From Synechococcus sp. Nb3U1 (GTDB lineage: Bacteria; Cyanobacteriota; Cyanobacteriia; Thermostichales; Thermostichaceae): 64,000 nucleotides of DNA. Under the pieces are notes generated by a model. The model was not told the origin of the DNA, did no database searches, and saw only the letters and a list, made by a program, of their open reading frames with translations. The stretch covers positions 2,052,427 to 2,116,426 of the forward strand of contig NZ_JAKFYQ010000001.1 in assembly GCF_021533835.1 (NCBI RefSeq). Reading direction: 5' to 3'. The translations under genes and the position numbers were made by a program. Shown here one piece after another: positions 22,342 through 37,743 of the stretch (its first letter is position 1; each line of letters opens with the position of its first letter).

Positions 22342-25300
22342 ATGGCTCAACTCGAAGATCTCACCCGTGGTACTACCGTCAAAGGCATCCTGCCGACTCA
22401 CAACGTTACCGTGATTGATGCGCAGTGGCATGGCACTGATGTGGTTGAGCTGACCTATAAGGATGCAAACGGTCAACCTCACACGGAGATCCTGTTTCGC
22501 GATCGCGAACCCACCCTGGAAATTGTTACCGCAGGGCAACCCTGGAGCTTTGATGGGGATGGGGCGTTGCTGCGGCTGGTGTCCGAAGCCTATCGCATTC
22601 GGCTGGCGCACTTATTTGATCCGCTGCTAGCGGTGCATACTTCGTTGGTGGAACCCTTGCCCCACCAGATCACGGCAGTGTATAGCGAGATGCTGACCCG
22701 TCAGCCTCTGCGGTTTCTCCTGGCGGATGATCCGGGTGCGGGGAAAACCATCATGGCGGGACTGTTGATCCGGGAATTGCTGATTCGGGGGGACTTACAA
22801 CGGTGCCTGATCGTGTGTCCGGGGAGTTTGGCAGTGCAGTGGCAGGATGAGTTGTCGCACAAGTTTCATCTGCCTTTTGAGATTCTGACCAATGACCGGA
22901 TTGAAGCGGCTCGGACGGGAAATCCCTTTGCTGAGATACCGCTGGTCATTGTCCGCTTGGACAAGCTCAGTCGCGATGAGAGTTTACAAGCCAGGCTCAG
23001 GCAAACGGATTGGGATTTGGTGGTGGTGGATGAGGCGCACAAACTATCGGCCTCGTTTTTTGGCGGTGAAATTAAGGAAACGAAGCGTTATAAGTTGGGT
23101 AAGTTGTTGTCAACACTGACCCGCCATTTCCTGCTGATGACGGCAACGCCTCACAACGGCAAGGAAGAGGATTTTCAGCTTTTTCTGGCACTGCTGGATG
23201 GCGATCGCTTTGAGGGGCGATTCCGAGATGGGGTACATACCTGCGATGTGTCGGATTTGATGCGGCGATTGGTGAAGGAGGATCTGCTGAAGTTTGACGG
23301 CAAACCGCTGTTTCCAGAGCGGCGGGCACATACGGTGCAGTATGCCTTGTCGGAGTTGGAGGCGGTGCTGTATGGGCGAGTGACGGACTATGTGCGGGAA
23401 GAGTTTAATCGGGCAGAAGCACTGGCAAATGAGGGGCGCAAGGGGACGGTAGGGTTTGCGTTGACCATTTTGCAGCGGCGGTTAGCCTCGTCACCGGAGG
23501 CGATTTATCAGTCGTTGCGGCGAAGAAGGGAGCGATTGGAGAAGCGGTTGAAAGAGGAGAGGGAACCACAAAGGTACAAAGGATCCGAAGAAGACTCTTT
23601 GTGGTCTTTGTGTCTTCGTGGTGAGTTAGATGAGGAGGATTTGACGGCGGAAGAATGGGAGTCTGCGGAGGAAGGGCTGGTGGATCTGGCGACGGCAGCG
23701 CGGACGATCGCGGAGCTTCAGGCGGAGATTGGGCGATTGGGGGAATTGGAGGCGCTGGCGCTGCGGGTGCGGCGGAGTGGGTGCGATCGCAAGTGGGAGG
23801 AGTTGTCGCGGGTGATTCAGGGGATTTTTTCACCACAAAGGCACAAAGGACATGAAGAAAACCCTTTGTGGTCTCTGTGTCTTGGTGGTTCGTCGCGCAA
23901 ATTGGTAATCTTTACCGAACATCGGGACACGCTGAACTACCTGATCCATCAGATTACCACCCTACTGGGACGACCGGAGGCAGTGGTGACGATTCACGGG
24001 GGGATGGGGCGGGAGGAGCGTAAGCGATCGGAGGAGGCGTTTAAGCAGGACGTGACGGTGCAGGTTTTGATTGCGACGGATGCGGCGGGGGAAGGGATTA
24101 ACCTGCAACGGGCGCATTTGATGGTGAACTATGATCTGCCCTGGAACCCGAATCGGTTGGAGCAGCGGTTTGGGCGGATTCACCGGATTGGACAGACCGA
24201 AGTCTGCCATCTTTGGAACCTGGTGGCGGCGGAAACCCGCGAGGGGGAGGTGTATCTGGCGCTGCTCAAGAAGTTGGAGATTGAGCAAAAAGCCCTCGGT
24301 GGCCAGGTGTTTGATGTGTTGGGGAAGGCGATCGCAGGTAAGGAATTGCGAGAACTGCTGATTGAAGCGATCCGCTATGGCGATCGCCCCGATGTCAAAG
24401 CCAAGCTAGATCAGGTGGTGAGCGATCGGCTTGACCAGGCTCGTCTGCGGGAGTTACTGGAGGAACGCGCCCTCGCACGGGATACGATGGATGCGACGAA
24501 GGTTCAGCAGATCCGCCAGGAGATGGAGCGAGCGGAAGCCCGCAAACTCCAGCCCCATTTCATTGCCTCCTTTTTCCTGGAAGCCTTCCAGCGATTGGGC
24601 AGTACGATTCGACAGCGGGAACCCAAACGCTATGAAATTACCCATGTGCCGGCGGTCATTCGCAATTGCGATCGCCTCATTGGAGTGGGTGAAGCTATCT
24701 TAAAACGGTATGAGCGAATCTGTTTTGACAAGGAACTGATCAGTGTGCCTGGCAAACCGCTGGCGGCTTTTGTCTGTCCGGGGCATCCCCTCCTGGATGC
24801 GGTGCTTGACTTGACCTTAGAGCGTCATCGGGATGTGCTGCGGCGGGGGGCCATCCTGGTAGATGACAATGATCCGGGGGAGGCGGTCCGGGTGTTGGTG
24901 TATTTGGAGCATTCGATTCAGGATGCGCGCACCGAACGAGATGGGCGGCGGCGGGTCGTCTCGCGTCGAATGCAATATGTCGAAATTGACAGCACAGGTC
25001 AGACCATTGGCGCTGGTTATGCCCCCTATCTCGACTATCGACCATTAGAGGAAGCAGAAAAGCCTTTGGCAGAATCGGCGCTGAATCATTTGGGTCTTCG
25101 CGATGATATTGAAAGCAAGGCGACCAGCTACGCCATTACCCACTTGGTTCCCCAGCACCTCCAGGAAGTCCGGGAGCGCAAGGAAGAACTCATTGACAAA
25201 ACCATTCGAGCGGTCAAAGATCGCTTGACCAAGGAGATCAACTATTGGGATCAACGCGCCGCTGAACTCCGCCTGCAGGAACAGGCCGGAAAGCCCAATG

Positions 25301-25959
25301 CCAAGCTCAACTCTGCTAGAGCACAGCAACGCGCAGATGAGTTAGCCGATCGCTTGCAAAAGCGTCTGGCTGAGTTGGAGCAGGAACGCAAGCTGTCCCC
25401 TCTACCGCCAGTGGTTGTCGGTGGGGCGCTGGTAGTGCCGATCGGGCTTTTGCAACGGTTACAAGGAAAACGGGAATCGACAACCAGTACCTTTGCCAGG
25501 GAAACCAAGCGAGTTGAGCTTGCTGCAATGGCCGCAGTTATGGCCGCAGAACGGGCGTTGGGGTATGAACCACAGGATGTGAGCGGCCAGAAATGTGGTT
25601 ATGACATTGAATCCTCGGCTGGGGGTGAGGGACTTCGATTGATTGAGGTGAAGGGCCGGATCGAAGGGGCAGAGACAGTTACTGTCACTAAAAACGAAAT
25701 TCTGACGGCGCTCAATAAACCCGAGAACTTTATTTTGGCGCTGGTGCAGGTGCCGATGGATCACAGTTTTCCAGAGGGGGATGCGTTTAGAGTAAAGACG
25801 ACTTCGGGCACCTATGCCGTACCGGGCGAGGGGTGCATTGTGCGCTATGTGCGGCAGCCGTTTCAGCGAGAGCCAGATTTTGGGGCCAGTAGCGTGAACT
25901 ACGAATGGCGGGAACTATGGGAACGGGGGGGTGAACCACAAAGACACAAAGAACACTAA
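22342..25959 (+). CDS. SNF2-type helicase with C-terminal DUF3883-like domain, anti-phage island
   Basis: A 1205-residue ATP-dependent DNA translocase, first core gene of the island. The motor has Walker A DDPGAGKTIMAGLLI (about 129-143), VVVDEAHKL (about 230), LLMTATPHNG (about 263), LVIFTEHRDTL (about 520), TDAAGEGINLQ and the arginine finger motif QRFGRIHRIGQ (about 607-617). The C-terminus (about 1060-1160) holds a DUF3883/Mrr-like segment with LIEVKGRIEG. Two 56-base palindromes are translated in frame at residues about 409-427 and 498-516, both in the linker between the two motor lobes. A third overlaps the stop codon, so the last residues EPQRHKEH come from repeat DNA. Such helicases accompany DUF1156 and DUF499 proteins in predicted anti-phage loci; the mechanism is not established here. 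Confidence 0.88.
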   Translation: MAQLEDLTRGTTVKGILPTHNVTVIDAQWHGTDVVELTYKDANGQPHTEILFRDREPTLEIVTAGQPWSFDGDGALLRLVSEAYRIRLAHLFDPLLAVHTSLVEPLPHQITAVYSEMLTRQPLRFLLADDPGAGKTIMAGLLIRELLIRGDLQRCLIVCPGSLAVQWQDELSHKFHLPFEILTNDRIEAARTGNPFAEIPLVIVRLDKLSRDESLQARLRQTDWDLVVVDEAHKLSASFFGGEIKETKRYKLGKLLSTLTRHFLLMTATPHNGKEEDFQLFLALLDGDRFEGRFRDGVHTCDVSDLMRRLVKEDLLKFDGKPLFPERRAHTVQYALSELEAVLYGRVTDYVREEFNRAEALANEGRKGTVGFALTILQRRLASSPEAIYQSLRRRRERLEKRLKEEREPQRYKGSEEDSLWSLCLRGELDEEDLTAEEWESAEEGLVDLATAARTIAELQAEIGRLGELEALALRVRRSGCDRKWEELSRVIQGIFSPQRHKGHEENPLWSLCLGGSSRKLVIFTEHRDTLNYLIHQITTLLGRPEAVVTIHGGMGREERKRSEEAFKQDVTVQVLIATDAAGEGINLQRAHLMVNYDLPWNPNRLEQRFGRIHRIGQTEVCHLWNLVAAETREGEVYLALLKKLEIEQKALGGQVFDVLGKAIAGKELRELLIEAIRYGDRPDVKAKLDQVVSDRLDQARLRELLEERALARDTMDATKVQQIRQEMERAEARKLQPHFIASFFLEAFQRLGSTIRQREPKRYEITHVPAVIRNCDRLIGVGEAILKRYERICFDKELISVPGKPLAAFVCPGHPLLDAVLDLTLERHRDVLRRGAILVDDNDPGEAVRVLVYLEHSIQDARTERDGRRRVVSRRMQYVEIDSTGQTIGAGYAPYLDYRPLEEAEKPLAESALNHLGLRDDIESKATSYAITHLVPQHLQEVRERKEELIDKTIRAVKDRLTKEINYWDQRAAELRLQEQAGKPNAKLNSARAQQRADELADRLQKRLAELEQERKLSPLPPVVVGGALVVPIGLLQRLQGKRESTTSTFARETKRVELAAMAAVMAAERALGYEPQDVSGQKCGYDIESSAGGEGLRLIEVKGRIEGAETVTVTKNEILTALNKPENFILALVQVPMDHSFPEGDAFRVKTTSGTYAVPGEGCIVRYVRQPFQREPDFGASSVNYEWRELWERGGEPQRHKEH
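23566..23621 (+). repeat. Palindromic repeat R1 inside the helicase gene, read in frame
   Basis: A 56-base imperfect palindrome starting CCACAAAGG and ending CTTCGTGG. It is translated as PQRYKGSEEDSLWSLCLRG, which is not part of the helicase fold. It is the same element as R2 and R3. Confidence 0.85.
23833..23888 (+). repeat. Palindromic repeat R2 inside the helicase gene, read in frame
   Basis: Second 56-base copy, starting CCACAAAGGC and ending CTTGGTGG, read in the same frame as R1 (PQRHKGHEENPLWSLCLGG). It ends just before helicase motif IV (KLVIFTEHRD). Confidence 0.85.
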
Positions 25960-26151: not shown

Positions 26152-26355
26152 ATGAAGTTAAAAATTATTGTTCATGAGGCGGAAGAAGGGGGCTACTGGG
26201 CAGAAGTGCCTGCCATTCCAGGATGTGCGACGCAAGGAGATAGCTTTGAAGAGTTGCTCGAAAATCTTTATGAGGCGATCGAGGGTTGTTTGTCCGTGGA
26301 CATCGAAATGCTTTCAGCTTCAGAGAAGAGCCGAGTGATGGAAATTGCGGTATGA
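26152..26355 (+). CDS. hicB: HicB-type antitoxin
   Basis: A 67-residue HicB-like protein, the antitoxin of a HicAB module, which blocks the HicA ribonuclease. The sequence has the family opening KIIVHEAEEGGYWAEVPAIP followed by GCATQGDSFEELLENLYEAIEG, the partly degraded RNase H-like core. It lacks the C-terminal DNA-binding helix that longer HicB proteins have, as do many cyanobacterial members. A GGAG ribosome site lies about 10 bases before the ATG. The stop overlaps the hicA start (ATGA), and the antitoxin-first order is frequent in cyanobacteria. Confidence 0.88.
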   Translation: MKLKIIVHEAEEGGYWAEVPAIPGCATQGDSFEELLENLYEAIEGCLSVDIEMLSASEKSRVMEIAV

Positions 26356-26561
26356 AATCCATTTTGGGCAAGCAGTTTGCCAAGATTTTGGAGCGTAAGG
26401 AATGGCAATTAATTCAGGTACAGGGCAGCTATCACATTTACACAAAGCCCGGTGAGTCAGTCCGCATCTCTATCCCAATCCACGGCAATAAAGACCTCAA
26501 AATCGGACTACTCCACTATTTTATGAAACAAGCCCACCTCTCAGAAGCTGATCTTGAATAA
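26352..26561 (+). CDS. hicA: HicA-type mRNA interferase toxin
   Basis: A 69-residue HicA-like toxin, a small double-stranded-RNA-binding-fold ribonuclease that cleaves mRNA. It contains the family motif segments KQFAKILERKEWQLIQVQGS, then YHIYTKPGESVRISIPIHGN with the catalytic-His position in GSYHIY and a second His in IHGNKDLKIGLLHYFMKQA. The start overlaps the hicB stop by four bases, so translation is coupled. The pair sits between the helicase and the methylase and may be part of the island's abortive-infection capacity or just keep the island in place; both are inference. Confidence 0.88.
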   Translation: MKSILGKQFAKILERKEWQLIQVQGSYHIYTKPGESVRISIPIHGNKDLKIGLLHYFMKQAHLSEADLE

Positions 26562-26601
26562 TCTCTATGCCTAAGTGTTTTTTATTTTAGGAGTCAAATT
26601 C

Positions 26602-26886
26602 ATGAATGCTCACAAACTCGCTGCAACTCTAATGGAGGATGGAACTCTCGTCTTGAAAGGATTACCGTTTCATGCCGGAGATACGGTAGAAATCATTATC
26701 CTGGAGCAGTCAAAAGCGGAACTTTCAAGTCAAGCATTTTCAGGAGACTATCCATTGCAGGGGACAGTGTTACGGTACGACGAACCCTCTAGCCCAGCGG
26801 TGGATGGAGAATATTTAGATGCTGTTGCGGCAACGCTGACCGAGTGGGATTCAGAAGCGGATAACTTGGCTTATCAAGATTTATGA
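26602..26886 (+). CDS. Antitoxin of a PemK/MazF-type module
   Basis: A 94-residue putative antitoxin. It begins MNAHKLAATLMEDGTLVLKG and has an AbrB/SpoVT-like look in the first half (GLPFHAGDTVEIIILE), with an acidic C-terminus that would block the toxin. The ATG at 26602 has the ribosome site TAGGAG eight bases upstream. Its stop overlaps the toxin start (ATGA). A shortened copy of this gene with its upstream region lies at 26013-26126. Confidence 0.8.
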   Translation: MNAHKLAATLMEDGTLVLKGLPFHAGDTVEIIILEQSKAELSSQAFSGDYPLQGTVLRYDEPSSPAVDGEYLDAVAATLTEWDSEADNLAYQDL

Positions 26887-27236
26887 GCAGCCAGTTTGAA
26901 CAGTTTGATCTCGTTGTCGTGCCCTTTCCATTCACAGATAGAACAGCGACTAAACGCAGACCCGCTCTGGTATTGTCAGACCTGGCTGCATTCAACACGC
27001 TGCTTGATCGCAGTGTCTTGGCGATGATTACCACATCAACCCATAGCTCCTGGCCTTTAGACGTACAAATTCAGGATTTAGCATCCACCGGCCTACAAGC
27101 ACCTTCCATCATTCGGATGAAGTTATTTACTCTGGATCATGCCTTGGTGCTGAGAAAAATCGATAAACTCACGAGCCAAGATGCTGCCTCTGTGGAAGCT
27201 GCTTTGCAGCAGTTATTCAAGTTACCTCAGTCCTAA
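26883..27236 (+). CDS. PemK/MazF-family toxin
   Basis: A 117-residue mRNA interferase-like toxin. It opens with the family signature FDLVVVPFPFTDRTATKRRPALVLSD, which corresponds to the MazF/PemK beta-barrel with the conserved PFPFTD and RPALVL elements. The closing part SIIRMKLFTLDH resembles the SxVRxxkl segment. It overlaps its antitoxin by four bases. The methylase gene begins only six bases after its stop, so the module appears to be in the transcript of the anti-phage core genes. Confidence 0.88.
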   Translation: MSSQFEQFDLVVVPFPFTDRTATKRRPALVLSDLAAFNTLLDRSVLAMITTSTHSSWPLDVQIQDLASTGLQAPSIIRMKLFTLDHALVLRKIDKLTSQDAASVEAALQQLFKLPQS

Positions 27237-27242
27237 ACCCCC

Positions 27243-30200
27243 ATGTCCTACCGCAAAAAGCTGATTGAAGTTGCCCTGCCGCTGGAAGCCATCAACATGG
27301 AGTCGGCGCGGGAGAAGTCGATTCGGCATGGGCACCCCAGCACGCTGCATCTGTGGTGGGCAAGGCGGCCGCTGGCGGCGTGTCGGGCGGTGTTGTGGTC
27401 GTCGCTGGTGGATGATCCGAGTAGCTGGCCAGACAAGTTTCCGACGGAAGAAGCGCAAAACCAGGAACGGCAGCGCTTGTTCGACATTTTGGGGCGGATT
27501 GTTGTTGAGACGGACAAGAAGGGCAACACCAAGCAGGTCGTGAAAGGCCTAGTGTCTTGGGATGAGGTGAATGACCCCAAATCTAAGGTGCTGGAGAAAG
27601 CTCAGCAAGAGATAGCGCGGTGTTTGGCATGGGAGAGAGGCGAGGAACCGCCGACAAAACCGGACGCGGTGCGCGAGTATATCGCCAAGTATGCGCCGCC
27701 TGCCTATGACCCGTTTGCTGGGGGTGGATCGATCCCATTGGAGGCACAGCGGTTGGGATTAGAGGCTCATGCCAGTGATTTGAATCCGGTGGCGGTGCTG
27801 ATCAACAAGGCGCTGATTGAGATCCCGCCGAAGTTCAAAGATCGACCGCCGATTAACCCAGAAGACAAATCGCAGATCCGCAACTGGCTTGGCGCTCAAG
27901 GGTTGGCCGCAGACGTGCGGTATTACGGCGCGTGGATGCGAGAAGAAGCATTTAAGCGAATTGGGCATCTGTATCCGAAGGTGAAGTTGTCGAAGGAGTC
28001 TGGTGGTGGTGAGGCAACTGTCATTGCGTGGCTGTGGGCGCGGACGGTGAAATGTCCAAACCCGGCTTGTGGGTGCCAGATGCCATTGGTACAGAGTTTC
28101 CAGCTTTCAACCAAGAAGGGGAAGGAGGCTTGGGTAGAGCCGATCGTAGGGAATAGGGAAGAGGTGACAGGGAATAGTGATGATTCTGTTCCCAGTTCCC
28201 TCTCATCTGTTCCCTCCATCCGGTTTGTGGTCAAGTCGGGGCAGGGGAAAGCGCCAGAAGGAACGGTGGAACGTAAGGGGGCGCGGTGTGTTGCTTGCGA
28301 AACACCTGTACCGCTTGATCATGTGCGAAGTCAGGGTAAAGCGGGGCGGATGAGTCAGCAGTTGATGGCGATCGTCGCTGAAGGACAAAACGGACGAATT
28401 TATCTATCACCCCAAGCGGAACACGTCGAAATTGCCCAATCAGCACAACCAACTTGGAAACCTGATGCTGATTTGCCGCATAATCCGAGAGATTTTAAGA
28501 CTCCAAACTATGGAATGAAGAAGATTTCAGATCTCTTCACGCCGCGTCAACTTGTAGCGCTAACCACCTTCAGCGATTTGGTGAGGGAAGCACGGGAAAA
28601 AGCCACCCAGGATGCTATTGTCGCAGGGCTGCCGGATGATGATGTGCCGTTGAATGATGGCGGAACCGGGGCTAGGGCTTATGGAGATGCGATCGCAACT
28701 TATTTGGCGTTTTCTGTTGATAAACTATCAGATAGATGTTCAACTATTTGTAGTTGGGATGTTGGATGTGTGAAAGTCAGAAATACATTTGTTAGGCAAG
28801 CAATTCCAATGATTTGGGATTTTGCAGAAGCAAATGCTTTCAGTGACTCAACCGGGAACTTTAATGGTGCAATTGAGTGGGTTTACAAAGTAATTGAAAA
28901 CGAATTTCCCAACTCTCGCACTCAAGTCCAGCAACACGACGCAACCACCCCTCACCCCCACGACACAACCCCCAAACTCATCTCCACCGATCCCCCTTAT
29001 TGCCTTGCCCCAGATACCCTCATCCAAACCGCCAAAGGCTATGTCCCCATTCAAGACATCCAAATCGGCGATCAAGTTTTAACTCATAAAGGGCAATTTT
29101 CCCCTGTCATCAACACTTCCAAACGTTGGTATGAAGGAGACATTTATCACCTCACTGTTGCAGGCGTTAACCACCCTCTGATTATCACTGGAGAACACCC
29201 AATCTATGGCATTCAAACCAATCCCTGTGGTTATCAATTCAGCTATTGCCATCCCGACTGTTCCTACATCAAAAGCCAAGGCCACTGCCGACATCAAGCC
29301 TTCGCCGACTATCATCTCGACTGGATACCCACCTCAGAGGCTAAACCCTATGATCTAATTTTTGTACCGACACTAACTACGAATAAATTTCGTCGCTCGA
29401 TTAGCCTGCGAGAATATTTGCCACAGAGTGACTATCTAGAGCGGAATGGGTTACTACACCACCAAAAAGCAACCTCTAAATCTCTCGATCGCAGAGAACA
29501 ACAAACCGCTACCCTTTGCCTCGATCGTCAATATACAATTCCAGATCGCTTACAAATTACTCCCGATTTTTGCCGTTTAATTGGCTTCTTCATTGCCGAG
29601 GGCTATGCTCGCCTAGAATCCGATGGTGGAACTATTCAATTTACCCTGCACTGGGAAGAGCAAAACCTGAAAGACGACATCATCCATCTGATGCAGACTT
29701 GCTTTCACCTCAGCCCCGGCAAAACCACCGACAATCGCAAAAATAATAATAACTCCTTCCGTCTCAACTTCTACTCAAAACCCATTACCACCCTTTTCCG
29801 TACCTGGTTCTATACCCAAGACGGACATAAATGTCTGCCCCAATGGGTTTTAGAGCTACCTGCTGAATTTTTAGAAGGCCTGATTAGAGGCTACTGGTGG
29901 GGTGATGGCTATCGTGCCAATAATGGCTACAAAGCTGTCACCGTCTCCCCTGCCCTGGCCGGACAAATTCAACTCATTCTCCAGAAATTAGACATTCGCT
30001 CCTGTTTACATACCCGCACCGTAAAAACCACGATCGTTAACGGCAATCCTGTCATCGCCCGCTACCCCCAGCACAACATCATCGTCAACGGGCCATCCTT
30101 ACTGAAACTAGCCCATCATATTGGCGAACCCAAAAATGAGCCTTTATCCCTCAAGCGGTTTAGCCAACATGGATCCTGGTGGGAAAATGGCTATCTTGTA

Positions 30201-31442
30201 CCCATTCGGAAAATAGAAAAGAAACCCTATGCCGGATATGTATATAACCTTGAAACCCTAGATCACTCCTACACTACAGCAATGGGATGTGTGCATAACT
30301 GCGACAACATTGGTTACGCCGATCTCTCTGACTTCTTTTACGTTTGGTTACGCCGATCTCTAGGAAGCATCTATCCTAATATTTGTGGCACCCTCCTAGT
30401 CCCGAAAGCCCAAGAACTGGTTTCCACACTCTATCGCTTTGAAGGTAGCAAACAAAAGGCTAAAGATTTCTTTGAATCTGGAATCAGACAAGCTTTCTCT
30501 CGCATGAGAGCAGTAACCCATGATGCCTATCCCGTCACAATATTCTATGCCTTTAAGCAACAGGAAGAAGAAGGCAAAAAAGGCGAAGAAGTGATCGCCT
30601 CGACAGGGTGGGAAACCATGCTGGAGGGATTGTTACAATCAAACCTGACCATTAACGGTACTTGGCCCATGCGAAGTGAACTGAGTAACCGCATGGTTGC
30701 TAGCGGCACCAACGCTCTTGTTTCCTCGATCGTCCTCGTCTGCCGCCCCCGCCCCAGCGACGCTCCCAAAATTACCCGCCGCCAATTCCTCACCGAACTC
30801 AAACGCGAACTCCCCAAAGCCCTCAAAACCCTCCAACAAGGCAACATCGCCCCCGTAGACCTCGCCCAACAAGACAGCATTGGCCCCGGCATGGCCATCT
30901 ACTCCCAATACACCGCCGTCCTCGAAAACGATGGCACCCCCCTGCGCGTCCGCACCGCCCTGCAACTGATCAACCAAATCCTCGACGAATACCTCACCGA
31001 GCAGGAAGGTGAATTTGATGGTGATACCCGTTGGGCACTCACCTGGTTTGAACAGTATCAGTTTGAGCCTGGACAGTACGGTGATGCTGAAACCCTCAGC
31101 AAAGCCAAAAATACCAGTGTACAAGGCATGGTAGAGGCGGGCATTCTAGAAGCAAAGGGCGGCAAGGTGCGCTTGCTCAAACGGGACGCCCTCACCCTCC
31201 CAGCCTCCCTCTCCCCAGGGGCGAGGGAGGAGCAAGGCACACCTTCTCCCCTCTCCCCACGTGGGAGAGGGGTCGGGGGTGAGGGGGCAAACGACTGGCT
31301 GATCACCCAACACCTCATCCATACCCTCGATCAACAGGGTGAAACCGGAGCCGCCGCCCTGCTGGCTAAACTGGGAAGCAGAGGCGACATCGCCCGTGAC
31401 TTGGCCTATCGGCTGTATAGCCTGTGCGACAGAAAAAACTGA
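27243..31442 (+). CDS. DUF1156 adenine-specific DNA methylase with intein, anti-phage island
   Basis: A 1399-residue precursor; without its intein the product is 966 residues. The N-terminus (MSYRKKLIEVALPLEAINME, then HPSTLHLWWARRPLAACRAV) is the DUF1156 signature. A SAM-binding motif YDPFAGGGSIPLEAQRLG lies at about 153-170, and a cysteine pair region (CPNPACGC, then CVACETP) near 275-370 may bind zinc. The catalytic DPPY (583-586) is followed by the intein (587-1019); after splicing the sequence reads TDPPYCDNIGYADLSDFF. Two palindromic repeats are read in frame, at 28148-28215 and 31188-31288. The TGA at 31440-31442 replaces what looks like a Trp codon, since coding-like sequence continues in frame to the TAA at 31548-31550, so the protein is cut by 35 residues. 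Confidence 0.9.
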   Translation: MSYRKKLIEVALPLEAINMESAREKSIRHGHPSTLHLWWARRPLAACRAVLWSSLVDDPSSWPDKFPTEEAQNQERQRLFDILGRIVVETDKKGNTKQVVKGLVSWDEVNDPKSKVLEKAQQEIARCLAWERGEEPPTKPDAVREYIAKYAPPAYDPFAGGGSIPLEAQRLGLEAHASDLNPVAVLINKALIEIPPKFKDRPPINPEDKSQIRNWLGAQGLAADVRYYGAWMREEAFKRIGHLYPKVKLSKESGGGEATVIAWLWARTVKCPNPACGCQMPLVQSFQLSTKKGKEAWVEPIVGNREEVTGNSDDSVPSSLSSVPSIRFVVKSGQGKAPEGTVERKGARCVACETPVPLDHVRSQGKAGRMSQQLMAIVAEGQNGRIYLSPQAEHVEIAQSAQPTWKPDADLPHNPRDFKTPNYGMKKISDLFTPRQLVALTTFSDLVREAREKATQDAIVAGLPDDDVPLNDGGTGARAYGDAIATYLAFSVDKLSDRCSTICSWDVGCVKVRNTFVRQAIPMIWDFAEANAFSDSTGNFNGAIEWVYKVIENEFPNSRTQVQQHDATTPHPHDTTPKLISTDPPYCLAPDTLIQTAKGYVPIQDIQIGDQVLTHKGQFSPVINTSKRWYEGDIYHLTVAGVNHPLIITGEHPIYGIQTNPCGYQFSYCHPDCSYIKSQGHCRHQAFADYHLDWIPTSEAKPYDLIFVPTLTTNKFRRSISLREYLPQSDYLERNGLLHHQKATSKSLDRREQQTATLCLDRQYTIPDRLQITPDFCRLIGFFIAEGYARLESDGGTIQFTLHWEEQNLKDDIIHLMQTCFHLSPGKTTDNRKNNNNSFRLNFYSKPITTLFRTWFYTQDGHKCLPQWVLELPAEFLEGLIRGYWWGDGYRANNGYKAVTVSPALAGQIQLILQKLDIRSCLHTRTVKTTIVNGNPVIARYPQHNIIVNGPSLLKLAHHIGEPKNEPLSLKRFSQHGSWWENGYLVPIRKIEKKPYAGYVYNLETLDHSYTTAMGCVHNCDNIGYADLSDFFYVWLRRSLGSIYPNICGTLLVPKAQELVSTLYRFEGSKQKAKDFFESGIRQAFSRMRAVTHDAYPVTIFYAFKQQEEEGKKGEEVIASTGWETMLEGLLQSNLTINGTWPMRSELSNRMVASGTNALVSSIVLVCRPRPSDAPKITRRQFLTELKRELPKALKTLQQGNIAPVDLAQQDSIGPGMAIYSQYTAVLENDGTPLRVRTALQLINQILDEYLTEQEGEFDGDTRWALTWFEQYQFEPGQYGDAETLSKAKNTSVQGMVEAGILEAKGGKVRLLKRDALTLPASLSPGAREEQGTPSPLSPRGRGVGGEGANDWLITQHLIHTLDQQGETGAAALLAKLGSRGDIARDLAYRLYSLCDRKN
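28148..28215 (+). repeat. In-frame imperfect palindrome in the methylase gene
   Basis: Two 30-base arms (28148-28177, rich in AGGGAA; 28186-28215, rich in TTCCCT) form an imperfect inverted repeat. It is translated as a low-complexity insert, NREEVTGNSDDSVPSSLSS, between cysteine-containing segments of the protein. Confidence 0.65.
29001..30299 (+). mobile_element. Intein with LAGLIDADG homing endonuclease motifs, in the DPPY motif
   Basis: A 433-codon in-frame insertion with all intein landmarks. It begins with Cys1 (CLAPDTLIQTAKG, block A) and has a block B segment ITGEHPIYG. It carries two LAGLIDADG motifs (LIGFFIAEGYARLES at about 29578 and LEGLIRGYWWGDGYRAN at about 29872). It ends GYVYNLETLDHSYTT...MGCVHN, followed by Cys+1 of the host protein. 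The C-terminal His-Asn and both nucleophilic cysteines are present, so splicing should work. Both endonuclease motifs keep an acidic residue (E and D), so homing activity is plausible. Confidence 0.93.
31188..31288 (+). repeat. In-frame G+C-rich palindromic repeat in the methylase gene
   Basis: An inverted repeat of about 100 bases, starting GCCCTCACCC and ending GGGGGTGAGGGGGC. It is translated as an insert rich in Ser, Pro, Gly and Arg (for example SPLSPRGRGVGGEG). The same kind of translated repeat is common in unrelated bacterial genes. Confidence 0.8.
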
Positions 31443-31551: not shown

Positions 31552-31652
31552 CCTTTGTGCCTTTGTGGTGAATATAACCACGGAGACACAGAAAACACAG
31601 AGAAATCCTAAAGGAGTTAAGCCATGAACACCCAGTTAGTCGAATCTGTCAT
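31552..31652 (+). repeat. R-type palindrome and 5' copy of an 89-90 bp direct repeat
   Basis: CTTTGTGCCTTTGTGG and CCACGGAGACACAG form another version of the R1-R3 palindrome (31552-31600). From 31564 to 31652 the sequence is repeated at 33459-33548 with few differences. The repeat includes the ribosome site and first ten codons of the antitoxin gene at 31624. Confidence 0.75.
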
Positions 31653-31839
31653 TCAGCTTATCCGTTCACTCTCCCCAGAGGAGCAAGCCATCTTAGAAGA
31701 AAAGCTTTTCTTTGATTTTGCTTACCCATCTACCCCAGATCTCGTCACCCTCGCCCTACGAGGTGGTAGTTTCGAGTTCTTGAATGACGAACTCGACCTC
31801 TATAGACTGGATGATGGAGAACCCATTCCATGTCCTTAG
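31624..31839 (+). CDS. Putative antitoxin of the second PemK/MazF-type module
   Basis: A 71-residue acidic protein (MNTQLVESVIQLIRSLSPEE, then AILEEKLFFDF) of the kind found before PemK/MazF toxins in cyanobacteria. The N-terminal helix has the SLSPEEQAILEEKL pattern. A strong AAAGGAG ribosome site precedes the ATG. It overlaps the toxin gene by ten bases. A truncated relic of its first codons exists at 33520. Antitoxin function is inferred from the arrangement. Confidence 0.78.
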   Translation: MNTQLVESVIQLIRSLSPEEQAILEEKLFFDFAYPSTPDLVTLALRGGSFEFLNDELDLYRLDDGEPIPCP

Positions 31840-32180
31840 CGAAAGGCGATATTGTGTTGGTTCCCTTTCCCTTTACCGACCTTAGCCAAACTAAACTGAG
31901 GCCAGCAGTCGTTCTTTGGGTCGAGCCTCAAGGGCAAGACATCACACTGTGCTTTATCTCTTCGCAGAACCTTGAGCGCATCACGCTGGATGAGTTGCTT
32001 CTGGAGACAAGCGACCCAGAATTTACGCAAACAGGACTTAAAACCACCTCCAAAATCAAAGTGACTAAAATTGTCACCCTAGAGCGACAGTTGCTTCAGC
32101 GACGATTAGGCAGCCTGGGCACGCAGCAGATACAGTGCCTAAACCAAACCCTAATCCAAGCCTTTCAGCTTGACGTGTAA
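31830..32180 (+). CDS. PemK/MazF-family toxin, second module
   Basis: A 116-residue mRNA interferase-like protein with the signature KGDIVLVPFPFTDLSQTKLR and PAVVLWVEPQGQD. The conserved ITLCFISSQ strand follows, and the SKIKVTKIVTLERQLL segment corresponds to the family's Ser/Lys-containing strand. It is similar in layout to the toxin at 26883 but not a recent copy, since they differ widely after the PFPFTD motif. It overlaps its antitoxin by ten bases and is followed by two Uma2-type genes. Confidence 0.87.
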   Translation: MSLAKGDIVLVPFPFTDLSQTKLRPAVVLWVEPQGQDITLCFISSQNLERITLDELLLETSDPEFTQTGLKTTSKIKVTKIVTLERQLLQRRLGSLGTQQIQCLNQTLIQAFQLDV

Positions 32181-33458: not shown

Positions 33459-33548
33459 TGTGGTGAATACGAACCACGGAGACACAGAAAACACAGAGAA
33501 ATCCTCAAGGAGTTAAGCCATGAACACCGAGTTAGTCGAATCTATCAT
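33459..33548 (+). repeat. 3' copy of the 89-90 bp direct repeat
   Basis: Nearly identical to 31564-31652, including the CCACGGAGACACAG half-palindrome, the AAGGAGTTAAGCC ribosome site and the codons for MNTELVES. A long stretch of genes (toxin and two Uma2) lies between the copies. Confidence 0.78.
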
Positions 33549-33603
33549 GAAGCCCGCAAAATCAAATTGCTCCCAGAAGATAGCTCCAGTACGAAAAACA
33601 TAA
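33520..33603 (+). pseudogene. Truncated relic of the PemI-like antitoxin
   Basis: A 27-codon frame starting MNTELVESIM, matching the start of the antitoxin at 31624 (MNTQLVESVI). Similarity fades after codon 10 and the frame ends at TAA, so the antitoxin domain is lost and no toxin gene follows. Confidence 0.6.
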
Positions 33604-34413: not shown

Positions 34414-37400
34414 ATGGCGATTAGCAACCACGAACGAGTCGGCAGAGCCTTGAATCTACTTCGCGATGGGCTTTACCCCTATATCGAGCGGGAGATGAAG
34501 GCCATCCATAGGGATCGCTGGCTCATCCCCGCCTCCGCCTGCTTACCCGACAGCTACGTCAAGTATAAAAAAGCTCAGGACGTGCTACGGGAAGATATCT
34601 CCGCCTTGCTGATTGTCATGTGGGAACAATGGAACACCGTCTTCAAGAAAACCCTAGGTCAATCCGAACGAACCCTAATTAGCGAACTGCGCAACACCCG
34701 AAATGATTGGGCACACACACCCACCTTTTCATCCGACGACGCTTACCGTGCCCTGGACAGCATTACCCGCCTCCTCAATGCCATCTCGGCTGCGACGGAA
34801 GCCAACTTGGTTGAAAAACAAAGACAAGAACTCCTACGCTTGCGCTATGAAGAACAGGCCCGTCGTGAAACCCGTAAAGTAACCGTCGCTCCTACTGAAG
34901 GCCAACCCATGGCTGGCCTCAAACCCTGGCGCGAAATTGCTACCCCCCATCCCGATGTTGCTTCTGGTCGCTTCCAGCAAGCCGAATTTGCCGCCGACCT
35001 CTGGCAGGTCTATCTGGATGAAGGCTCCGACGAATACCGCGACCCCACCGAATTCTATCGCCGCACCTACCTCACCGACGGACTGCAACAACTGCTCACC
35101 AACGCCCTGCGACGGCTGAGTGGTCAGGGCGGCGATCCGGTGATCGAACTGCAAACCAACTTCGGCGGTGGCAAAACCCACGCCATGCTGGCTCTCTACC
35201 ACCTGTGTCAGGCAATGCAAATCTCAGACTTGCCTGGGATGGAACCGATCTTTCAGACCGTGGGGCTTGCGGCCCCGCCTCAAAATGTCAATGTGGCCGT
35301 TCTGGTGGGCAATAAGCTCCAGCCCAGCGGCATTGTGCCCTATAAGCCAGAACACGCCAGCCAAAATCGCCCGCTGATTAAAACCCTCTGGGGCGAACTG
35401 GCCTGGCAACTGGGCGGAGCCGAGGGCTATGAACTGGTGCGGCAAGCGGATGAAACGTCCACCAATCCGGGCGATGCCCTTAAGAGATTATTTAACCGCT
35501 TTTCTCCCTGCTTGATTCTGATTGATGAATGGGTGTCCTACGCGCGGCAGCTCCACGAACAGAGCGACTTACCCGGCGGCAGTTTCGATACCCAATTCAC
35601 CTTTGCCCAGACCCTCAGCGAATCCGCCAAGAATGCTAAAGATACCCTGCTGGTGGTGAGCATTCCATCGTCGGATATCGAGATTGGGGGCGATCGCGGT
35701 AAAGAAGCCATGGATCGACTCAAAAATGCGATCGGTCGGGTGGAATCCCCCTGGCGACCCGCTAGCGCGGAAGAGAGTTTTGAGATTGTGCGCCGGCGCT
35801 TATTCCAAACGACGGTTGACCCCAGCCTGTTTGTCCAACGGGATGCCGTCGTCAAAGCCTTCATGGAGATGTATCGCACCCAGAGCCAGGAGTTTCCGAG
35901 TGAGTGCAAAGAAAGTGACTACGAACGGCGCATGAAGGCCGCCTACCCCATCCATCCTGAACTGTTCGATCGCCTCTATTCCGACTGGTCTACCCTCGAT
36001 AAATTCCAACGCACCCGCGGTGTCCTGCGGCTGATGGCCAAAGTCATCCATTCCCTCTGGGAGCGCAACGACCAGAGCCTGATGATCATGCCTGCCCATA
36101 TCCCGATGGACGATCCGCCGGTGCAGTCAGAACTGACCCGCTACCTGGAAGATAACTGGCTGCCCGTCATTGATAAGGATGTGGATGGCACAAACTCCCT
36201 GCCCCTCACCCTCGATCGCAACAATCCCAAACTGGGGCGTTATTCCGCCTGCCGCCGCGTCGCCCGCACCGTTTACATGGGGTCTGCGCCTACCCTGCGT
36301 GCCGCCAATCGCGGCCTCGACGATCGTCGCATTAAACTGGGCTGCGTCCAACCCGGAGAAAGCGTCGCCACCTTTGGCGATGCCCTGCGCCGCCTCACCG
36401 ATCAAGCCACCTATCTCTACATCGACGGCAACCGCTACTGGATCTCCACCCAACCCAACGTCAACCGCACCGCCCAGGAACGTGCCGAGCAACTCCTGAG
36501 CGATCGCCACCCCGTCTGGGAAGAAATCATCAAACGCCTCAAAGCTGACAAAAATCGGGGCGAATTCAGCGCTATCCATGTCGCACCAGACTCCACCGCC
36601 GACATTCCCGATGATCCCACCCTAGGCGTCCGGTTAGTCGTGCTCGATCCCCAACATCCGCATAGCAAAGGCACCGAAGACAGCCCCGCCCGCCAATGGG
36701 TCGAGAATGCCCTGAACCATAGGGGCAGCGGTTCCCGGTATTACAAAAACACGCTCCTATTTCTGGCACCGGATAAGGCCAAAATTGAAAATCTGGAACG
36801 CAACACCGCCCAATATCTTGCCTGGAAAGCGATTGTGGACGAAAAAGATGCCCTCAACCTGGATGTCTTTCAAAGCAAACAGGCTGACACCAAGCTCAAA
36901 CAATCTCACCAGGATGTTGAGAATATCCTCCGCGATACCTATCAGTGGCTCTTAATTCCTGATCAACCGGATGCGCAGGGTGGCATTGAATGGCAGGAAA
37001 CTCGACTACCCAATCAAGACTCCCCTATTTTGCAAGCGAGTCGCAAAGCCAGCCATGAAAATGATCTTCTAACCACCTGTCATGCATCCTATTTACGGCT
37101 CGAAGCCCTCGATAAATACCTCTGGCGAGACACGAATCACATCGATCTAAAACGGCTTTGGGAATATCTCACCCAGTACCTCTATCTCCCTCGCTTGAAG
37201 AATCAGTCCGTGCTTCTGGAAGCCGTTCGAGATGGAGTCACCTCAACGGTGTGGGCTGATAACTTCGCCTATGCGGAAGGCTTTGATGACGCAAAAGGGA
37301 GGTATCTCGGTCTTCAAGCCGGTACAGGTATCAATCCCAGCATTAGCCCCCAAAGCCTTGTGGTTAAGCCAGAAGTGGCTCAGCAGCAGCTTGATGAGGA

Positions 37401-37743
37401 AAGGAGGAAAAAAGAGGAAAGAGAAGAGAGAAAAGAGGATGGAGAGAGTACTTCAGTTCCCCTCACTTCTGACTCCTCTCCCCTCACGTCTATCTCCTCT
37501 ATTCCTATCCTCCGTAGGTTTCATGGCAATGTGGACATTGATGCGATGCGGATTAACCGCGATGTGCCAACGATCGCCAACGAAGTCATTCAACACCTCA
37601 CCGCTTTGAATGGCGCAACGGTCAAAATTACTCTGGAGATTGAAGCTGAAATTCCTGAGGGAGTACCTGATGATGTAGCGCGTACTGTCATGGAGAATTG
37701 CCGAACGCTCAAATTTAATGGTCAATCTTTTGAGCAGAGTTGA
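34414..37743 (+). CDS. DUF499 AAA-type ATPase, anti-phage island
   Basis: A 1109-residue protein of the DUF499 family, which accompanies DUF1156 methylases in predicted anti-phage loci. The first 140 residues are a helical domain (MAISNHERVGRALNLLRDGL, then ELRNTRNDWAHTPTFSSDDA), similar to Swt1-like domains. An ATPase core begins near 180 (LKPWREIATPHPDVASGRFQ). Walker A is TNFGGGKTHAMLAL (about 248-261) and Walker B LILIDEWVSYA (about 367-377), with a sensor-like LLVVSIPSSD near 411. The C-terminal half has no motif I recognise. Near the end (37396-37513) a purine/pyrimidine palindromic repeat is translated as a charged then Ser-rich insert. The last domain (IDAMRINRDVPTIANEVIQH) resumes afterwards. 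Confidence 0.9.
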   Translation: MAISNHERVGRALNLLRDGLYPYIEREMKAIHRDRWLIPASACLPDSYVKYKKAQDVLREDISALLIVMWEQWNTVFKKTLGQSERTLISELRNTRNDWAHTPTFSSDDAYRALDSITRLLNAISAATEANLVEKQRQELLRLRYEEQARRETRKVTVAPTEGQPMAGLKPWREIATPHPDVASGRFQQAEFAADLWQVYLDEGSDEYRDPTEFYRRTYLTDGLQQLLTNALRRLSGQGGDPVIELQTNFGGGKTHAMLALYHLCQAMQISDLPGMEPIFQTVGLAAPPQNVNVAVLVGNKLQPSGIVPYKPEHASQNRPLIKTLWGELAWQLGGAEGYELVRQADETSTNPGDALKRLFNRFSPCLILIDEWVSYARQLHEQSDLPGGSFDTQFTFAQTLSESAKNAKDTLLVVSIPSSDIEIGGDRGKEAMDRLKNAIGRVESPWRPASAEESFEIVRRRLFQTTVDPSLFVQRDAVVKAFMEMYRTQSQEFPSECKESDYERRMKAAYPIHPELFDRLYSDWSTLDKFQRTRGVLRLMAKVIHSLWERNDQSLMIMPAHIPMDDPPVQSELTRYLEDNWLPVIDKDVDGTNSLPLTLDRNNPKLGRYSACRRVARTVYMGSAPTLRAANRGLDDRRIKLGCVQPGESVATFGDALRRLTDQATYLYIDGNRYWISTQPNVNRTAQERAEQLLSDRHPVWEEIIKRLKADKNRGEFSAIHVAPDSTADIPDDPTLGVRLVVLDPQHPHSKGTEDSPARQWVENALNHRGSGSRYYKNTLLFLAPDKAKIENLERNTAQYLAWKAIVDEKDALNLDVFQSKQADTKLKQSHQDVENILRDTYQWLLIPDQPDAQGGIEWQETRLPNQDSPILQASRKASHENDLLTTCHASYLRLEALDKYLWRDTNHIDLKRLWEYLTQYLYLPRLKNQSVLLEAVRDGVTSTVWADNFAYAEGFDDAKGRYLGLQAGTGINPSISPQSLVVKPEVAQQQLDEERRKKEEREERKEDGESTSVPLTSDSSPLTSISSIPILRRFHGNVDIDAMRINRDVPTIANEVIQHLTALNGATVKITLEIEAEIPEGVPDDVARTVMENCRTLKFNGQSFEQS
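37396..37513 (+). repeat. In-frame purine/pyrimidine inverted repeat in the DUF499 gene
   Basis: A left arm of GAGGAAAG type and a right arm of CTCCTCTATTCC type form an imperfect inverted repeat of about 118 bases, translated as EERRKKEEREERKEDG and then a Ser/Thr/Pro-rich stretch. Confidence 0.6.

Follow-up and report, generated by a model that had tools for sequence, protein, structure and literature searches.

Why the catalytic motif of a DNA methylase in a cyanobacterial defence locus should be split by a long in-frame insert, and whether such an element serves its host gene or itself, is the question raised by the hmaB gene of Synechococcus sp. Nb3U1. We addressed it in a window of 64,000 nucleotides (contig NZ_JAKFYQ010000001.1) from a genome that is itself cyanobacterial, with photosystem II reaction-centre and phycobilisome genes present. 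The host system comprises three genes:

22342..25959, + strand: hmaA, SNF2/DEAD-box helicase (PADLOC HmaA, E=0, 1674 bits)
27243..31442, + strand: hmaB, DUF1156 DNA methylase with intein (PADLOC HmaB, E=0, 1107 bits, in two stretches; Pfam DUF1156, 9.9e-31)
34414..37743, + strand: hmaC, DUF499 AAA+ ATPase with N-terminal Swt1-like HEPN domain (PADLOC HmaC, E=0; HEPN_Swt1, 3.3e-39; DUF499, 8.2e-33)

With HmaA, HmaB and HmaC all present (PADLOC E=0 each), the locus is an Hma system, as described by Payne et al. (PMC8565338) and later treated as a Type-1 BREX-related (BR) system whose methylase is of the N6 type (PMC12839542). Both HmaA and HmaC cover their PADLOC models in full, and profile searches of the whole genome returned a single HmaB copy and a single LAGLIDADG_3 match. 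The window has in common with the described systems the HmaA-HmaB-HmaC genes and the HEPN-fused DUF499 ATPase, but differs from them in its interrupted hmaB and in the MazF, Uma2 and HNH genes that separate hmaB from hmaC. The MazF-like gene of this interval (31830-32180) is the second at the locus, HicA-like and MazF-like toxin genes also lying between hmaA and hmaB (26286-27236). An 82-bp repeat, 94% identical, brackets the MazF-Uma2 block (31576-31657 and 33472-33553) and may be the trace of a duplication or insertion. In HmaA (22342-25959) a short repeat-like peptide, PQR.KG.EE..LWSLCL, occurs twice in frame, and the two copies are probably interspersed repeats now inside the coding region. 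The chemistry of HmaB (27243-31442) is labelled differently between sources, as an adenine methylase in PADLOC, an m5C methylase by Payne et al. (PMC8565338) and an N6-methylase in the 2026 BREX paper (PMC12839542); its DPPY motif fits an amino-methylase.

The open reading frame at 27243-31442 (+) encodes a precursor of 1399 aa, or 966 aa without the insert. A sequence-only reading had placed a 433-residue intein at the DPPY motif of this DUF1156 defence methylase (29001-30299), starting with Cys after DPPY, ending with His-Asn before Cys, and containing an ITGEHPIYG block B and two LAGLIDADG motifs. Every one of these elements was recovered, and the exact boundaries were upheld by comparison with empty sites. 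The insert corresponds to HmaB residues 587-1019, opens with CLAPDTL right after TDPPY and closes with GCVHN, followed by the extein CDNIGYADLSDFFY; block B occupies intein residues 62-70, and the LAGLIDADG motifs, RLIGFFIAEGYA and LEGLIRGYWWGDGYR, residues 192-203 and 291-305, respectively. On the precursor, Pfam assigns DUF1156 to residues 11-82, Hint_2 to residues 587-631 (2.8e-8, the N-terminal end of the intein) and LAGLIDADG_3 to residues 876-961 (7.8e-13), and removing the insert in silico yields 966 aa reading TDPPYCDNIGYADLSDFF. The element is organized as follows:

29001..30299, + strand: intein, 433 aa, HmaB site a (DPPY|C), from Hint_2, LAGLIDADG_3, empty-site comparison and VMA-intein fold match
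29001..29039, + strand: splicing block A, containing the catalytic Cys1 that all 18 aligned inteins share
29184..29210, + strand: splicing block B, ITGEHPIYG, with T63 and H66 invariant in 18 inteins
29226..29288, + strand: four-cysteine insert C76-C83-C87-C96, invariant in six site-a inteins, missing at site b, found also in three viral inteins
29574..29609, + strand: LAGLIDADG motif 1 with acidic residue E200
29826..29846, + strand: endonuclease block with conserved Lys277
29871..29915, + strand: LAGLIDADG motif 2 with acidic residue D302, invariant in 18 inteins
30228..30299, + strand: splicing blocks F and G, with C430 V H432 N433 at the end
30300..30302, + strand: +1 Cys codon (TGC), Tyr or Phe in every empty homologue

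The class-1 splicing residues are complete (C1, T63xxH66, H432-N433 and the +1 Cys), and the endonuclease retains both motifs with their acidic residues, E200 and D302, as well as the conserved K277. Across 18 aligned inteins C1, T63, H66, D302 and N433 are invariant, while H432, E/D200 and K277 are kept in all HmaB-site relatives readable at those positions. An AlphaFold model of the intein (pLDDT 87.3, pTM 0.88) returned as its top PDB fold matches the TliVMA intein (3.1e-19), 2cw7 (PI-PkoII; 2.7e-17) and PI-SceI (6.4e-15), with the endonuclease I-DmoI also among the matches. A Hint fold is indicated both by the Hint_2 profile and by similarity to solved inteins. An intein-free HmaB modelled poorly (pLDDT 58.6) and gave zero matches in a phmmer search against the PDB. 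A chance origin of the insert is excluded by the profile matches, the precise empty-site comparison and the six further alleles occupied at the same codon described below. At the level of sequence, the insert at 29001-30299 is thus confirmed as a full-length class-1 intein with a two-motif LAGLIDADG endonuclease.

We then compared alleles with and without the intein. All 27 intein-less homologues of a first set read DPPYY or DPPYF, and 400 Chloroflexota genomes contributed 70 empty sites in 56 genomes (68 Tyr, 2 Phe), none with Cys at +1 even though the search pattern permitted it. The initial reading was right to give DPPYYDN for intein-less relatives: in all 97 empty homologues DPPY is followed by Y or F, DPPY-C occurs in none, and alignment with these DUF1156 proteins shows the insert to be absent at the exact codon. 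Occupied alleles were sought with a degenerate pattern for the downstream junction, scanned over 84,980 species genomes, which gave seven matches, six of them real (Spirulina subsalsa, two Oscillochloris, Aggregatilineales, another Chloroflexota and Thermoflexales); the seventh, a Saprospiraceae match (L035), was a chance hit in low-complexity DNA and was rejected. Including the window, seven occupied alleles are at hand (two cyanobacteria, five Chloroflexota), and 7/7 carry the +1 Cys, which supports the initial reading of this residue as a splice-linked change (P = 4.7e-11 if the sequences were independent, which they are not). Because empty alleles have no Cys at +1, each successful invasion would need co-conversion of the flank from Tyr to Cys. 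Site a is free of an intein in most HmaB relatives. Among 386 genomes of the window's phylum, a direct search for the intein turned up no close relative besides the window's own, and none came from the other 8 genomes of its order; viral contigs yielded neither the occupied-junction pattern nor a close intein relative, only distant inteins in other genes.

The patchy distribution is mirrored in the extein tree, where alleles with the intein are scattered among empty ones and a minimum of six presence/absence changes is needed, a count that takes in the long-branched Annamia row of a second site (site b, below) as one and in which changes may be losses as well as gains. The Spirulina HmaB extein groups with empty alleles (support 100) and not with that of the window, although among inteins that of Spirulina is nearest to the window intein (88% identity between inteins, 78% between exteins). 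For this pair, dN/dS is 0.054 for the intein, 0.034 for its endonuclease part and 0.148 for the extein; judged by these ratios, the intein is under strong purifying selection. With a dS of 1.3, near synonymous saturation, the two inteins offer no indication that the window's own lineage acquired its copy recently, and the window and Spirulina exteins showed no raised similarity clearly centred on the insertion point. The two Oscillochloris alleles, both from metagenome-assembled genomes, gave an intein dS of 0.010 versus 0.224 for the extein, with 7/1293 intein bases differing and a mismatch-free extein run of 512 bp spanning the junction (next longest 182; 0/20000 shuffles); outside this run, 62/569 bases of hmaB differ on the left and 92/947 on the right. 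Such a tract fits the mark expected from homing with co-conversion of flanks, and by its sequence the intein looks like an active homing parasite.

A second insertion site came to light in related methylases:

L038:426-1703, - strand, and upstream: HmaB of Thermoflexales, interrupted by two related inteins at a spacing of 14 codons
L071:8001-9290: site-b intein in a DUF1156 methylase of Annamia dubia plasmid AP025633, annotated as a hypothetical protein

In the Thermoflexales HmaB, the end of a site-a intein is followed 14 codons downstream by a full intein at FFY|C...HN|CWL; the contig stops within the first intein, so that the upstream DPPY junction lies beyond the contig end. Annamia dubia is a cyanobacterium; its methylase has as neighbours a DUF499 ATPase and a helicase that gave PbeA- and PLD-helicase-type matches, and by gene content the locus is a cousin system of Hma. 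Site-b inteins are 32-35% identical to the window intein. Two viral contigs (L130:4001-5113 and L143:4001-5146) encode phage DNA methylases with inteins just upstream of motif IV (T|C-PPY), where the +1 Cys replaces the first residue of (S/D/N)PPY; on sequence evidence, these are another instance of inteins targeting methylase motif IV. The four-cysteine insert that follows block B (C76, C83, C87, C96) was present in 6/6 readable site-a inteins and may form a metal-binding loop. The idea that it is peculiar to the defence methylase was dropped, since three viral inteins of other hosts (L100-L102) carry the same insert; this occurrence, together with its absence from site-b inteins, leaves it with no tie to a defence role.

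Together, we consider it highly probable that the element is a selfish, splicing-competent homing intein residing in the catalytic DPPY motif of HmaB. After translation it would excise itself by an acyl shift at Cys1, transfer to the +1 Cys, cyclisation of Asn433 and ligation, and the spliced product would be a 966-aa N6-adenine-type methylase reading TDPPYCDN. Empty alleles of hmaB would be cut by the endonuclease at motif IV, whose codons are highly conserved, and the intein plus its flanks, including the Cys codon required for splicing, would be copied into the cut allele during repair, allowing persistence through horizontal homing among cyanobacteria and Chloroflexota. Insertion into the active site would make imprecise loss costly, and splicing would leave the host gene usable. 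From these features we infer that the intein splices, that its endonuclease cleaves DNA and that the Cys-bearing product is an active methylase; the unspliced precursor, its motif IV split by the insert, is probably inactive.

This last point could also be taken to mean that the intein is a conditional switch, holding HmaB inactive until a metal, redox or infection signal and thereby regulating defence; the initial reading likewise had splicing act as a switch on the defence gene, for which we found no specific support. The split motif IV makes precursor activity unlikely, the four-cysteine insert beside block B is invariant in site-a inteins, and zinc- or redox-conditional splicing is documented in other inteins (PMC7360933). 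However, the same insert is shared with viral inteins of unrelated hosts and missing at site b, most HmaB relatives have no intein at site a, and the endonuclease has been kept intact, as in a selfish element, so that we regard a switch as improbable. Inactivity of the precursor does not by itself make the intein a regulator, given that we see no sign of conditional splicing and that the four-cysteine loop is not host-specific. A broader proposal fares no better, namely that inteins have a hot spot in the DUF1156 methylases of Hma and its relatives, where two sites spaced by 14 codons fall in and just after motif IV, and that some of these inteins splice conditionally via the four-cysteine loop, so that a mobile element controls the timing of self-DNA modification; as a whole, we would give it little credence.

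Still less likely is an inactivated element that no longer splices and leaves hmaB non-functional. Replacement of Tyr by Cys in the active-site loop could lower activity, but both the extein (dN/dS 0.148) and the intein (0.054) are under purifying selection, the splicing residues are all intact, and HmaA and HmaC are full length. The open frame that continues through the insert would speak for a normal domain of the methylase fold, a reading of negligible probability that the empty-site comparison has already refuted, the insert being missing at the exact codon in 97 homologues and matching inteins in sequence and fold. The patchy distribution, the purifying selection on the endonuclease and the co-conversion tract instead fit a selfish element that would splice constitutively.

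Comparison with known inteins places the HmaB elements further. According to the structural model, the window intein would share with the VMA inteins (PI-SceI, TliVMA, PhoVMA) a common fold in which the splicing domain is broken by a two-motif LAGLIDADG endonuclease; unlike them, it resides in a DUF1156 defence methylase, carries the four-cysteine insert after block B and shows 10-14% identity in the fold alignments. Haloarchaeal MCM genes harbour neighbouring inteins with interfering homing, and MCM-a and MCM-d resemble the HmaB case in having several close sites in a catalytic domain and in that, for some invasions, a flanking Pro has to be co-converted to Ser (PMC10643990). In contrast to MCM-a/MCM-d, every empty HmaB allele seen lacks the +1 nucleophile, and the sites lie 14 codons apart in a defence gene. 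Similar to the HmaB intein, the actinophage methylase intein of the Dorothy_75 family is described (PMC9957025) as a patchy, horizontally mobile LAGLIDADG intein in a DNA methylase, but it is a 327-aa intein in a phage gene. Inteins are unmentioned in the main texts of both Hma/BR papers (PMC8565338 and PMC12839542), and a literature search, with most subscription journals outside its reach, brought up no paper that describes an intein in a DUF1156/Hma methylase. The HmaB inteins are a new intein allele family of known kind, and the neighbouring second site is their most unusual element.

Since all empty sites seen are without the required +1 nucleophile, obligatory co-conversion becomes directly testable in this family. 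Inteins usually reside in essential replication genes, and defence genes are accessory and patchily distributed. A lineage of inteins dedicated to a defence methylase's catalytic motif would therefore be a useful test of how inteins choose and keep their hosts. Moreover, if the helicase and ATPase are active but the HmaB precursor is not, the speed of splicing would bear on how a newly acquired system avoids self-attack.
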